Of a DNA stretch of 64,000 nucleotides, positions 36,530 through 41,268 are shown one piece after another. The DNA lies in assembly GCF_008329525.1 (NCBI RefSeq), contig NZ_NPKQ01000003.1, positions 372,001-436,000 on the forward strand. The letters run 5' to 3'. Numbering within the stretch: position 1 is the stretch's first letter; each line of letters opens with the position of its first letter. The notes beneath the pieces were generated by a model, which worked only from the letters and a program-made list of their open reading frames with translations, was not told the origin of the DNA and searched no databases. Source of the stretch: Tardiphaga sp. P9-11. GTDB lineage: Bacteria > Pseudomonadota > Alphaproteobacteria > Rhizobiales > Xanthobacteraceae. The translations under genes were made by a program, and so were the position numbers.

Positions 36530-37654
36530 CTACTCCCAGTTCAGCGCGCCACCATTCTGGTATTCGATCACCCGGGTCTCGAAGAAGTTCTTCTCCTTCT
36601 TCAGGTCCATGGCTTCCGACATCCATGGGAACGGATTTTCCGTCTCGTCGAACACCGGCGCGAGGCCGATCTGGGCGCAGCGGCGGTTGGCGATGAAGTG
36701 CATATAGGTCTCGCACAGCGCCGCATTCAACCCGAGGAAGCCGCGCGGCATGGTGTCCCGCCCATAGGCAGCCTCGAGTTCGGCGGCGGTGCGGATCATG
36801 TCGCGGATTTCCTCCTGGAATGCCTTGGTCCAGAGATGCGGGTTCTCGATCTTGATCTGATTGATGACATCGATGCCGAAGTTCAGGTGGATCGATTCAT
36901 CGCGCAGGATGTACTGATACTGTTCGGCGATCCCGACCATCTTGTTGCGGCGGCCGAGCGACAGGATCTGCGCAAAGCCGGTATAAAACCACATACCTTC
37001 GAAGATCACATAGAAGGCGACGAGATCGCGCATGAAAGCCTGATCGGTCTCGGGCGTACCGGTCTTGAAGCCGGGATCGTCGAGATGCTGGGTGTGCTTC
37101 AGCGCCCAGGCCGCCTTCTCGGTGATCGAGGGCACCTCGCGATACATGTTGAACAGCTCGCCCTCGTCGAGACCAAGGCTTTCGACGATGTACTGGAACG
37201 TATGCGTATGCACCGCCTCCTCGAAGGACTGCCGCAGCAGATATTGTCGGCATTCCGGATTGGTGAGGTGACGATAGATCGCCAGCACGATGTTGTTGGC
37301 GACAAGGCTCTCTGACGCCGCGAAGAAACCGAGATTGCGTTTGATCGCGCGGCGTTCGTCTTCGGTGAGGCCATCACGCGACTTCCACAATGCGATGTCG
37401 GCCTGCATCGAGACCTCAGTTGGCATCCAATGATTGTTGCAGCCGGCGAGATACTTCTCCCACGCCCATTTGTATTTCAACGGTAGCAGCTGATTGACGT
37501 CGGCACGGCAGTTGATCATGCGCTTCTCGTCGACCGAGACGCGGCCGCCGGAGCGGTCGATGGCGCCGAGGCCGGTTTGATCGACAGCACCTTGCGGCAG
37601 CGGGATGAAAGCGGGTGCCTTGGCGGCGGATGAAGTATCGGACCAGTCGAGCAT
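36530..37654 (-). CDS. nrdB: Class I ribonucleotide reductase beta subunit, class Ic (Mn/Fe) type
   Basis: 374 aa. The six expected metal ligands are visible: Glu115 (FAASESL), Glu146 and His149 (FEEAVH), Glu219 (VIFEG), Glu253 and His256 (RDESIH). Counting four residues after His149, as in E. coli NrdB (His118 then Tyr122), gives Phe153 (HTHTF), so the radical-bearing Tyr is absent. Glu115 replaces the Asp84 of E. coli. Both features, and the near-identical C-terminus [20 protein letters not shown], match Chlamydia trachomatis class Ic NrdB, which uses a Mn(IV)/Fe(III) centre in place of a tyrosyl radical. ATG 37654 has AGGAA upstream; the open frame extends into a repeat element. It is 163 bases downstream of nrdA. 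Confidence 0.95.
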
Positions 37655-37710: not shown

Positions 37711-37796
37711 TCGTCATTGCGAGGAGCGAAGCGACGCGGCAATCCAGTATTGCTTTGAGACAGAACTGGATTGCTTCGCTTCGCTCGCAACGACGG
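37711..37796. repeat. REP-like palindromic repeat between nrdA and nrdB
   Basis: An imperfect inverted repeat: the left arm CGTCATTGCGAGGAGCGAAG...CAATCCAG (37712-37747) and the right arm CTGGATTGCTTCGCTTCGCT...AACGACG (37767-37795), with a 19-base loop. This is the dispersed repeat type common in Bradyrhizobium and Rhodopseudomonas. It forms a hairpin in the mRNA between nrdA and nrdB and may stabilise the nrdA part or reduce nrdB expression. Confidence 0.85.
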
Positions 37797-37817: not shown

Positions 37818-40745
37818 TTACTGGCACGCCTCACATTCGGGATTGTCGATCGAGCAAGCCATCGCTGCGGACAGGTCCGGCGCCGTGACTGCGGAGGACT
37901 GAACCAGAATTGGTGCGCCGGCCGTCTTCGCCGCCGACACTGTTGCGGACACGGCGTTCAGCTTGCCGTCAGTACCCTTCAGCGTCGACTTCTCCACATG
38001 CGTGGCACTGCGCGAGCGCAGATAGTAGGTCGTCTTCAATCCCAGCGTCCAGGCCAGGCGATAGAGCTGGTCCAGCTTCTTGCCGGATGGATTGGCGATA
38101 TAGAGATTGAGCGACTGTGCCTGGTCGATCCACTTCTGCCGGCGCGAAGCCGCCTCGATCAACCATGCACTGTCAATCTCGAACGAGGTCGCATACAGCG
38201 CCTTGAGATCATCCGGCACGCGATCGATCGATCCGACGCTGCCATCGAAATATTTCAGGTCGGAGACCATCACCCCGTCCCACAGCCCCCTCTTTTTCAG
38301 ATCGCGCACAAGGAAGGCATTCACCACCGTGAAATCGCCCGACATGTTCGATTTGACATAGAGGTTCTGATAGGCCGGCTCGATCGACTGCGCGACGCCG
38401 CAAATGTTGGAGATGGTCGCCGTCGGCGCAATCGCCATCACGTTGGAATTACGCATGCCCGTCGTCCTCACACGGTCACGCAGACTGCTCCAGTCGAGTG
38501 TCGCGGAGCGGTCCATCTGCACGCCACCGCGGGCCTCCGCAAGTATCTCGATGGAGTCGATCGGCAGGATGCCGCGGCTCCACAGCGATCCGTCGAAGGA
38601 CGGATAGCGACCGCGCTCGGCCGCGAGATCGACCGACGCCGAGATCGAATGGAAGGCAATTGCCTCCATGCTGGTGTCGGCAAAGGCCACCGCCGCATCG
38701 GACGCCATCGCGATGCCCTGCACCTGCAGCGCATCCTGGAAGCCCATCAGGCCAAGGCCCACCGGGCGATGCTTGAGGTTCGAGCGGCGCGCTTCCGGGA
38801 TGGTGTAGAAATTGATGTCGATGACATTGTCGAGCATCCGCATCGCCGTGGTCACGGTGCGCTTGAGCTGCGCGTGGTCGATACCATCCTTGCCGATATG
38901 ATTGAGCAGGTTGATCGAGCCGAGATTGCAGACCGCGACTTCGTCGTCTGACGTGTTGAGCGTGATCTCGGTGCAAAGATTCGACGAGTGGATCACGCCG
39001 GCATGCTGCTGCGGCGAGCGCAGGTTGCAGGGATCCTTGAAGGTGATCCAGGGATGGCCGGTCTCGAACACCATGGTCAGCATGCGGCGCCACAGATCGG
39101 TCGCACGCACCTTCTTGAACACGCGGATTTCGCCGCGCGCAGCCTTCTCTTCATAGGCTGCGTAACGCTCGGCAAAAGGCTTGCCATAGAGGTCATGCAG
39201 TTCCGGCGTCTCGTCCGGCGAGAACAGCGTCCATTCACCGTCGGCCTCGACGCGTTGCATGAACAGATCCGGCACCCAGTTGGCGGTGTTCATGTCGTGG
39301 GTACGGCGGCGATCGTCGCCGGTGTTCTTGCGCAGATCGAGGAATTCCTCGATGTCGATGTGCCAGGTTTCCAAGTAAGCGCAGACTGCACCCTTGCGCT
39401 TGCCGCCCTGATTGACGGCGATGGCCGTATCGTTGGCGACCTTCAAGAACGGCACCACGCCCTGGCTCTCGCCATTGGTGCCCTTGATATGCGCGCCGAG
39501 GCCGCGCACGCGGGTCCAGTCGTTGCCGAGACCACCGGAATATTTCGCCAGCAGCGCATTGTCCTTCACCGACTTGAAGATGCCGTCGAGATCGTCGGCC
39601 ACAGTCGTGAGGAAGCAGGACGACAGTTGCGGGCGCAGCGTGCCGGAATTGAACAGCGTCGGCGTCGAGGCCATGAAGTCGAACGACGACAGCAGATTGT
39701 AGAATTCGATGGCACGGGCTTCGCGGTCGATCTCGCGCAAAGCGAGGCCCATGGCGACGCGCATGAAGAACGCCTGCGGCAGTTCGATACGGTGGCCCTG
39801 CACATGCAGGAAGTAGCGGTCGTACAGGGTCTGCAGACCCAGGAACTGGAACCGGAGGTCCCCCTCCGGCTTCAGCGCGGCAGCGATTCGCTTGAGATCG
39901 AAGCGCGCGAGTTCCGGATCGAGCAGCTCGGCCGCAATGCCGGTCTTGATATAGGCGCTGAAATATTCGGCGTAACGCGTCGTCATATCGGCCTGCGACG
40001 CGTGGGCCGGCGTGCCCCCGACAAAGGACAGGACTTCGGTGCGCAGTTTGTCGAGGAGCAGGCGGGCGCTGACAAAGGTGTAGTTCGGCTCCTGCTCGAC
40101 CAGCGTGCGCGCGGCCATGATGCCGGCCAGTGCCAGCTCATCCAGCGTGATGCCGTCATAGAGATTGCGGCGGGTTTCCTCGAGCACCGGGGCGGCATCG
40201 ACGCCGTCAAGGCCGGCGCAGGCCTCGTTGACGATCAGCGCGAGCCGCGCCGAATCAAGCGGAGCGCGGGTGCCGTTGGCGAGCGTGACATGCAGCACCG
40301 GTGCGCTAGAGACGAGCGCCGGCTTCGCGGCCAGTTCTTCGGCGCGGGTGCGAGCGCGTTCCTCGCGATACAGCACATAGGCGCGGGCCACTTTGTGGTG
40401 CTCGCTGCGCATCAGCGCCAGTTCAACCTGATCCTGCACGTCCTCGATATGGAATGTGCGCCCCTCACCGACGCGGCGCGTCAGCGCAGCCACGACTTCG
40501 CCGGTCAGTTGTTCCACCGCCTCATGGACGCGGCGTGACGCCGCTGCCGTGTGGCCCTCGACGGCCAGAAAGGCCTTGGTCATCGCGACGGAAATCTTGC
40601 TGCCGTCGAAGGGCGACACCGTGCCGTTGCGCCGGATGATCTGCATCGAGGGCTCGCGCGCGGACACGACATTCGGTTCAGAGGAAACATGGGCGGTTAC
40701 GGCCGCGTCATGGCCGTTGGAGAGGGCGTAGGACGTGGAAGGCAT
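37818..40745 (-). CDS. nrdA: Class I ribonucleotide reductase alpha subunit, two ATP-cones
   Basis: 975 aa. Two ATP-cone regulatory domains are visible near the N-terminus: residues about 34-125 ([20 protein letters not shown]) and about 150-240 ([20 protein letters not shown]). E. coli NrdA (about 760 aa) has one. Catalytic residues are in place: Cys377 (LSSCFLT), Cys591 within SNLCTEI (radical Cys, with Asn589 and Glu593) and Cys606 (AVCNLGSIN). Redox-active cysteines sit at the end (Cys964, 971, 974, ECEACQ). It reduces ribonucleotides to deoxyribonucleotides with NrdB. ATG 40745 is chosen; the in-frame extension to 40907 is the translated riboswitch. It is preceded by a cobalamin riboswitch on the same transcript. 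Confidence 0.96.
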
Positions 40746-40826: not shown

Positions 40827-40874
40827 GCATTGCCTGCAAGCGACCGCTGGGACACCCCGCCCATGGACGTTCTG

Positions 40875-41065
40875 GTGTCGCGGCAGGTCTCCTGGCTCGC
40901 AGGTCAATGTCTGTTTCAGCCTTCCCGATGCTTGCGCATCAGTGACTTCAATCGAAACAGACTCACTGCTTACAGTTGCGGGGGCAGCGCCGGAATATGA
41001 CGCAAAACAGCGTCTTTACCGGCTTCCCTCTTAGCCACCAAGTCTTGCGACAGGGCGGACCGTGA
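40875..41065 (-). ncRNA. Cobalamin (B12) riboswitch upstream of nrdA
   Basis: On the minus strand the conserved blocks occur in order: TAAGAGGGAAGCCGGT, then GCTGCCCCCGCAACTGTAAG, then GTCACTG, GGGAAGGC, and the B12 box GAGCCAGGAGACCTGCCG. This is the full cobalamin-riboswitch core, not a partial match. It lies about 130 bases before the nrdA start and on the same transcript, so binding of adenosylcobalamin is expected to shut off expression of the ribonucleotide reductase. The same logic is known for other nrdAB and metE genes whose B12-dependent isozymes exist. Boundaries are approximate. Confidence 0.96.
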
Positions 41066-41268
41066 CGTCTACATTTGGTGTGACCCGCGGTGAAGTGTCA
41101 AGCGGGCATTGGAGCCTACCGCAACAAATTCGGTAGGGCTGTTGGTTCAGTGGACAACCGCTTGCGTGGCGGAAACCGCGGGATCGTGGGCGGCTTCTGA
41201 ACGATGCGATTCGTTGCCGCCGAGCACCGCGAGACGCAGAACGTTGTCATCAACCGATGGAGGATGGA

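Follow-up and report, generated by a model that had tools for sequence, protein, structure and literature searches.

The nrdB gene of Tardiphaga sp. P9-11 encodes a ribonucleotide reductase (RNR) R2 subunit with phenylalanine at the place of the radical tyrosine, and it raises the question of which metal centre such a protein would use and which role it would have in an operon that begins with a cobalamin riboswitch. According to the available portions of the literature, class Ic RNR was shown in Chlamydia trachomatis in 2007 (PMC8463856) and had been seen in haloarchaea by 2010, with "other bacteria" mentioned (PMC3019208), and a 2021 map of >31,000 R2 proteins has Ic-like nodes within the Pseudomonas aeruginosa cluster (PMC8463856). 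A literature search with most subscription journals outside its reach found, in the accessible text, no description of class Ic in Alphaproteobacteria or of class Ic combined with a riboswitch.

The stretch of DNA analysed, referred to as the window, comprises 64,000 nucleotides of contig NZ_NPKQ01000003.1 (positions 372,001 to 436,000), and all coordinates given below are those of the window. The features of the locus are the following:

36530..37654, minus strand: nrdB, class Ic-type (Phe-type) R2 subunit, 374 aa (NCBIfam NF005550, PRK07209)
37196..37198, minus strand: codon of Phe153, at the radical-tyrosine place (position computed from the start codon at 37654)
37310..37312, minus strand: codon of the metal ligand Glu115 (position computed from the start codon)
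37724..37786, no strand assigned: palindromic repeat with 14-nt arms, 93% complementary, occupying much of the 163-nt nrdA-nrdB spacer
37818..40745, minus strand: nrdA, class I catalytic subunit, 975 aa (ATG at 40745, stop at 37818)
40865..41079, minus strand: cobalamin riboswitch RF00174 in the nrdA leader (129.9 bits against a gathering threshold of 31.5, full-length model 1-189)

NrdB and its key residues

The original prediction placed NrdB at 36530-37654. The frame holds, with a length of 374 residues, and the strand is corrected to minus: the gene reads from 37654 down to 36530, and a plus-strand reading of the interval in the same register contains stops. The protein matches NF005550 with 680.2 bits (cut-off 309) and is the single R2 match in the 6.16 Mb host genome; its closest named relatives are from Tardiphaga sp. 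(94% and 92% identity).

The translation agrees with the predicted residues, and their numbering is exact. It contains the six-ligand dimetal set E115, E146, H149, E219, E253 and H256, with Glu at the place of E. coli Asp84, and the redox-inert Phe153 stands where the radical tyrosine would be; the class Ia feature of a radical Tyr near the di-iron site is absent. In phmmer alignments Phe153 faces Phe and E115 faces Glu of the C. trachomatis R2 (1SYY), whereas E. coli-like R2s, for example L158, have Tyr and Asp in these columns, so that both predicted substitutions were borne out. Entry 2ANI differs from 1SYY, within the aligned stretch displayed, solely by a Tyr at the Phe153 place. We take this place to be that of E. 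coli Y122 and C. trachomatis F127, and the Glu115 place to be that of E. coli Asp84 and C. trachomatis E89; by alignment offsets, the seven NrdB residues presumably correspond to chlamydial E89, E120, H123, F127, E193, E227 and H230. The C-terminal tail with the pathway residue Tyr365 is present. None of the 161 aligned R2 rows deviates at W76, D252 or Y365, and Y248 is present in all 96 Phe-type rows.

The same seven residues recur in 18 of the 18 related genomes read, out of 39 followed (36 from the family sample described below plus G197, G247 and G534). They were likewise found in 80/80 loci recovered by peptide search, a count that is partly selected, as two of the query peptides contain residues typical of the Phe clade; the phylum sample is free of such bias.

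Phe/Glu and Tyr/Asp types among aligned R2 proteins

The two positions vary together. An alignment of 152 rows (the window's NrdB, 6Y2N, C. trachomatis, 80 peptide-search loci and 69 phylum-sample rows, with the own-genome duplicates L001, L002 and L090 excluded) contains 90 rows with E115/F153 and 62 with D115/Y153; with nine named plasmid and phage rows added, the numbers become 96 and 65 of 161, and mixed cases are found in neither set. Columns 79, 115, 152 and 153 distinguish, without overlap, these 90 Phe rows and the near Tyr-type rows, which number 35 and are Tyr/Asp throughout; column 79 no longer separates the types once haloarchaea join the alignment.

Overall identity behaves differently. 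The long near-identical stretches shared with the chlamydial protein, which had been cited in support of class Ic, do exist but are not discriminating: NrdB is 59.8% identical to C. trachomatis R2c and 59.7-67.6% identical to the near Tyr-type rows, 34 of which are closer to it than the chlamydial protein is. As identity fails to tell the types apart, likeness to Chlamydia is no argument for class Ic. On the residues at the metal site, NrdB is a class Ic-type R2.

Among characterized systems, the C. trachomatis class Ic enzyme (1SYY, 4D8F, 4M1H) shares with NrdB all seven key residues as well as the C-terminal tail and the W and Y residues of the radical path; we know of no cobalamin riboswitch or NrdJ beside the chlamydial genes. 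The closest solved structure is the R2 of Saccharopolyspora erythraea (6Y2N; 84.9% identity), which is alike in the E/F pair and the ligands, its host being an actinobacterium. The word "manganese" occurs 0 times in the available text of its structure report (PMC7467353). The nearest Tyr-type rows are R2s of the P. aeruginosa kind.

One origin of the Phe type or two

All trees were quick trees, in which long branches (C. trachomatis and phage L191) weaken any choice between a single and a double origin of the Phe/Glu pair. A first tree required one change between the Phe and Tyr types (SH-aLRT 57). With haloarchaea included, a free search gave two changes, the Phe rows falling into two separate groups; forcing them together gave a lnL 8.4 higher and was not rejected (p-AU 0.65), again on quick trees. 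A reduced tree that omitted three long branches, one of them C. trachomatis, recovered the Phe rows as one group (SH-aLRT 93), and the position of C. trachomatis beside the Phe clade depends on the long branches. R2 proteins without the tyrosine are described as forming a tight cluster in the part of the source available (PMC4390871), with which the present trees agree but which they do not prove. A single clade of NrdB with the C. trachomatis, S. erythraea and haloarchaeal Phe-type R2s is thus favoured by the sequences, though not proven.

Distribution

R2 proteins 82-100% identical to NrdB occur in 36 of the 149 sampled genomes of the host's family, but at E 1e-100 or better a match was present in just 3 of the 289 genomes sampled evenly across the class, the host's own being one of them, which indicates a patchy accessory gene. 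At E 1e-10, 113 of 299 genomes in the phylum sample match this R2. Holders identified by the peptide search include Bradyrhizobium, Kaistia, Labrys, Mesorhizobium, Methylobacterium and Thalassospira and, in the Acidobacteria and Actinobacteria, Acidobacteriaceae, Nocardiopsis, Amycolatopsis and Streptomyces; cultured type strains are represented among these alphaproteobacterial, acidobacterial and actinobacterial Phe-type proteins. Mobile elements also contribute: alphaproteobacterial plasmids are among the holders, 7 of 41 matching plasmid records being 80-90% identical, and the two of these seven that were read (L192, L199) are both E/F, while 11 of 50,697 phage records match at E 1e-40 or better and the one read (L191) is Tyr-type.

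The locus had been presented as a chlamydial feature in an unexpected host. This view finds no support, as class Ic is published in haloarchaea and other bacteria, 6Y2N is 85% identical and proteins of 82-100% identity occur in the family as described. Beyond Chlamydia, class Ic has precedents in archaea and in more than one phylum of bacteria; as a member of the class, NrdB adds a further case that is not unusual, and little beyond that.

Several additional observations were made in these samples. Ten of the 149 family genomes carry instead an R2 of about 30% identity (the one read, L156, is Asp/Tyr), and the two R2 types occur together in 0/149, as if mutually exclusive. The plasmid-borne Phe-type nrdAB genes of L199 (Methylocella tundrae) and L192 (Phyllobacterium zundukense) have a B12-linked neighbourhood, with metE adjoining in one and metH close in the other.

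The cobalamin riboswitch and class II NrdJ

The original prediction of a B12 riboswitch nearby proved correct: RF00174 is located just ahead of nrdA, its end being 119 nt from the ATG, and it is one of five cobalamin riboswitches in the host genome. A single class II NrdJ, full-length, is encoded on a different contig of this genome (G000:C28; PRK07562, 2349 bits). Among the related genomes with this nrdB, 38/39 have the riboswitch on the same strand, 2,984-3,281 bp ahead of nrdB, and 38/39 have a PRK07562-type NrdJ above the cut-off. The sole exception in both counts is G693, which has Phe-type nrdAB but neither NrdJ nor a riboswitch at nrdA and is a natural genome in which to test the purpose of the switch. 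Further afield, the riboswitch was found in 7/7 acidobacterial loci and in 10/19 scanned actinobacterial loci (L078 and L083 lay outside the scan). By comparison, scans of the 6 kb ahead of nrdB in 20 of the 35 near Tyr-type operons detected no RNA family; NrdJ is clearly present in the genomes of four of these 20 (G062, G219, G246, G255).

To relate the riboswitch to NrdJ, the alphaproteobacterial loci were tabulated from 47 loci whose genomes were searched. L005 (upstream sequence cut) and L032, L048 and L053 (genomes whose sole class II-like frame is divergent and scores under the cut-off) were dropped; L006 was scored NrdJ-positive from two sub-cut-off pieces on two contigs; L039, L042 and, with upstream sequence cut, L025, L045 and L059 lay outside the table. 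The riboswitch calls in the 38 positive loci derive from a B12-box motif scan alone in 33 cases and from cmscan in 5; the motif scan overlooked the L043 riboswitch, which cmscan detected. Both elements were present in 34 loci, NrdJ only in 2 (L055, L057), the riboswitch with no NrdJ detected in 4 (L007, L019, L041, L054) and neither in 3 (Fisher p 0.024). The NrdJ absences in L007, L041 and L054, which are MAGs, may reflect assembly loss. The corresponding actinobacterial numbers, with L082 dropped (NrdJ in pieces), are 8, 8, 1 and 1. Across all groups the association gives p 0.08, and on tree-independent pairs it reached no significance; across phyla the link between riboswitch and NrdJ is weak. 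A rule by which the riboswitch occurs only where NrdJ is present proved weak: it fits the window's relatives, including G693, and fails in the Actinobacteria and in several alphaproteobacteria.

The contrast between 38/39 relatives and 0/20 Tyr-type operons, together with the weak link to NrdJ, indicates that membership of the Phe clade predicts the riboswitch better than the presence of NrdJ does. We tentatively raise the possibility that, among class I nrdAB operons, the cobalamin riboswitch is specifically associated with the Phe/Glu (Mn/Fe) clade, although we consider this somewhat less probable than the contrary. The association may instead stem from descent and from the lineages sampled, since the Tyr-type rows belong to other classes of the phylum.

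The layout of the locus has a precedent in the Streptomyces nrdABS operon, in which the riboswitch is likewise followed by nrdA and nrdB, with a class II NrdJ encoded apart; in the available part of the source this operon is labelled class Ia (PMC4991794). The same text, citing Borovok 2006, describes a cobalamin riboswitch on S. coelicolor nrdAB and a parallel class II enzyme (PMC4991794). S. nanshensis L070, the one Streptomyces in the set, has the riboswitch, a full NrdJ and the E/F residues, which suggests, but does not show, that S. coelicolor NrdB is also Phe-type. P. aeruginosa-type operons have a similar NrdA and differ in both of the other respects, with Tyr/Asp in place of Phe/Glu and no cobalamin riboswitch in those scanned.

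Were the association with the Phe clade causal, cells would be exchanging a cobalt cofactor for a Mn/Fe one, and Streptomyces nrdABS, the "class Ia" operon best known for its riboswitch control, would in truth belong to class Ic. The frequent pairing of Phe-type genes with a cobalamin riboswitch may be useful in that it opens such a Co-to-Mn/Fe enzyme swap to direct genetic testing.

Two further observations concern these loci. The genomes of L032, L048 and L053 (G763, G707 and G711) contain frames of 640-743 aa that match the class II NrdJ model at 209-223 bits, below the cut-off, and that possibly encode a divergent class II reductase. In addition, some loci have a pair of cobalamin riboswitches on the 5' side of nrdA, separated by about 75-260 bases and lying on opposite strands, one serving nrdAB and the other pointing away towards another gene (G217:C1:6370184-6370748; L043:4479-4927; L051:4465-5025; L061:7-475; L070:4025-4722).

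Proposed function and alternative readings

The sequence features, the gene order, the riboswitch and NrdJ, all observed in this genome, are well accommodated by an oxygen-dependent class Ic-type RNR, formed by a Mn/Fe NrdB with NrdA and acting as a B12-independent spare for the class II NrdJ. We regard this assignment as probable. For the cofactor and its chemistry we reason from relatives. Apo-NrdB would most likely take up Mn in site 1 and Fe in site 2. Reaction with O2 or H2O2 would then produce Mn(IV)/Fe(IV), and its reduction by one electron arriving via a surface Trp/Tyr relay (W76 and Y248, roles assumed after C. trachomatis W51 and Y222) would yield the predicted Mn(IV)/Fe(III) centre. 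Mn(IV), instead of a tyrosyl radical, would then oxidise the active-site Cys of NrdA by the usual long-range path, probably running from W76 through Y365 to the NrdA tyrosines. The Mn(IV)/Fe(III) chemistry is reviewed for C. trachomatis (PMC8463856), whose cofactor is the only one of class Ic found described in the literature available; no metal measurement for alphaproteobacterial, acidobacterial or actinobacterial Phe-type proteins was found there. The position of the riboswitch ahead of nrdA, in a genome that has a class II NrdJ, is best read as the mark of a B12-independent backup. The direction of the switch is again taken from relatives: plentiful adenosylcobalamin would allow the leader riboswitch to hold nrdAB low, and scarcity of B12 or cobalt in the presence of oxygen would turn nrdAB on.

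Metal content is unreadable from sequence, and a Phe-type R2 could in principle work in vivo with a di-iron Fe(IV)/Fe(III) or a dimanganese, class Id-like centre in place of Mn/Fe. NrdB, however, has the E/F pair of the C. trachomatis R2, with which a common clade is favoured, and the structures presumed to be class Id (5OLK, 6SF4, 6CWO and 6CWQ, together with 6CWP) match it at 45-73 bits against 462 for 1SYY. In the available text of two sources (PMC6754362, PMC8463856), class Id proteins retain the Tyr at the aligned position and have a Lys close to the metals; with Phe153 at that position, membership of class Id was rejected. The accessible part of the review also describes the C. trachomatis scaffold as prone to mis-metallation (PMC8463856), which keeps a di-iron or dimanganese centre in consideration, though as an unlikely one.

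The Phe residue might also mark a decayed R2 whose radical site was destroyed by mutation, with NrdJ left as the sole working enzyme, as the complete NrdJ makes nrdAB dispensable in principle. We consider this very improbable: the frame is intact, the Glu ligand accompanies Phe in 96/96 Phe rows, and the retention of the key residues in all 18 related genomes read speaks against decay. Mn/Fe use would be compatible, too, with an R2-like ligand-binding oxidase (R2lox), a protein that is no reductase subunit and of which M. tuberculosis Rv0233 is presumably an example. According to the available portions of the sources, R2lox may use Mn/Fe (PMC6399176) and Rv0233 is said to resemble class Ic (PMC4428469). 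The model scores contradict this reading (31.6-53 bits for the R2lox models, all below cut-off, against 680.2 for the R2 model), as do the C-terminal tail with Tyr365 and the adjacent nrdA, and its probability is negligible. The class Ic-type reductase with a predicted Mn/Fe centre remains the preferred reading.

nrdA and the intergenic repeat

The nrdA gene is complete and adjoins nrdB, lying upstream on the same strand, and encodes the one class I NrdA in the genome. Its nearest solved structure is 5IM3, which we take to be P. aeruginosa NrdA (954 residues, 1379 bits). A 91-base query covering the repeat in the nrdA-nrdB spacer gave nine matches in the genome, two being the site itself on either strand and the others 75-88% identical; by the sequence of these copies, the palindrome is a dispersed REP-like element.
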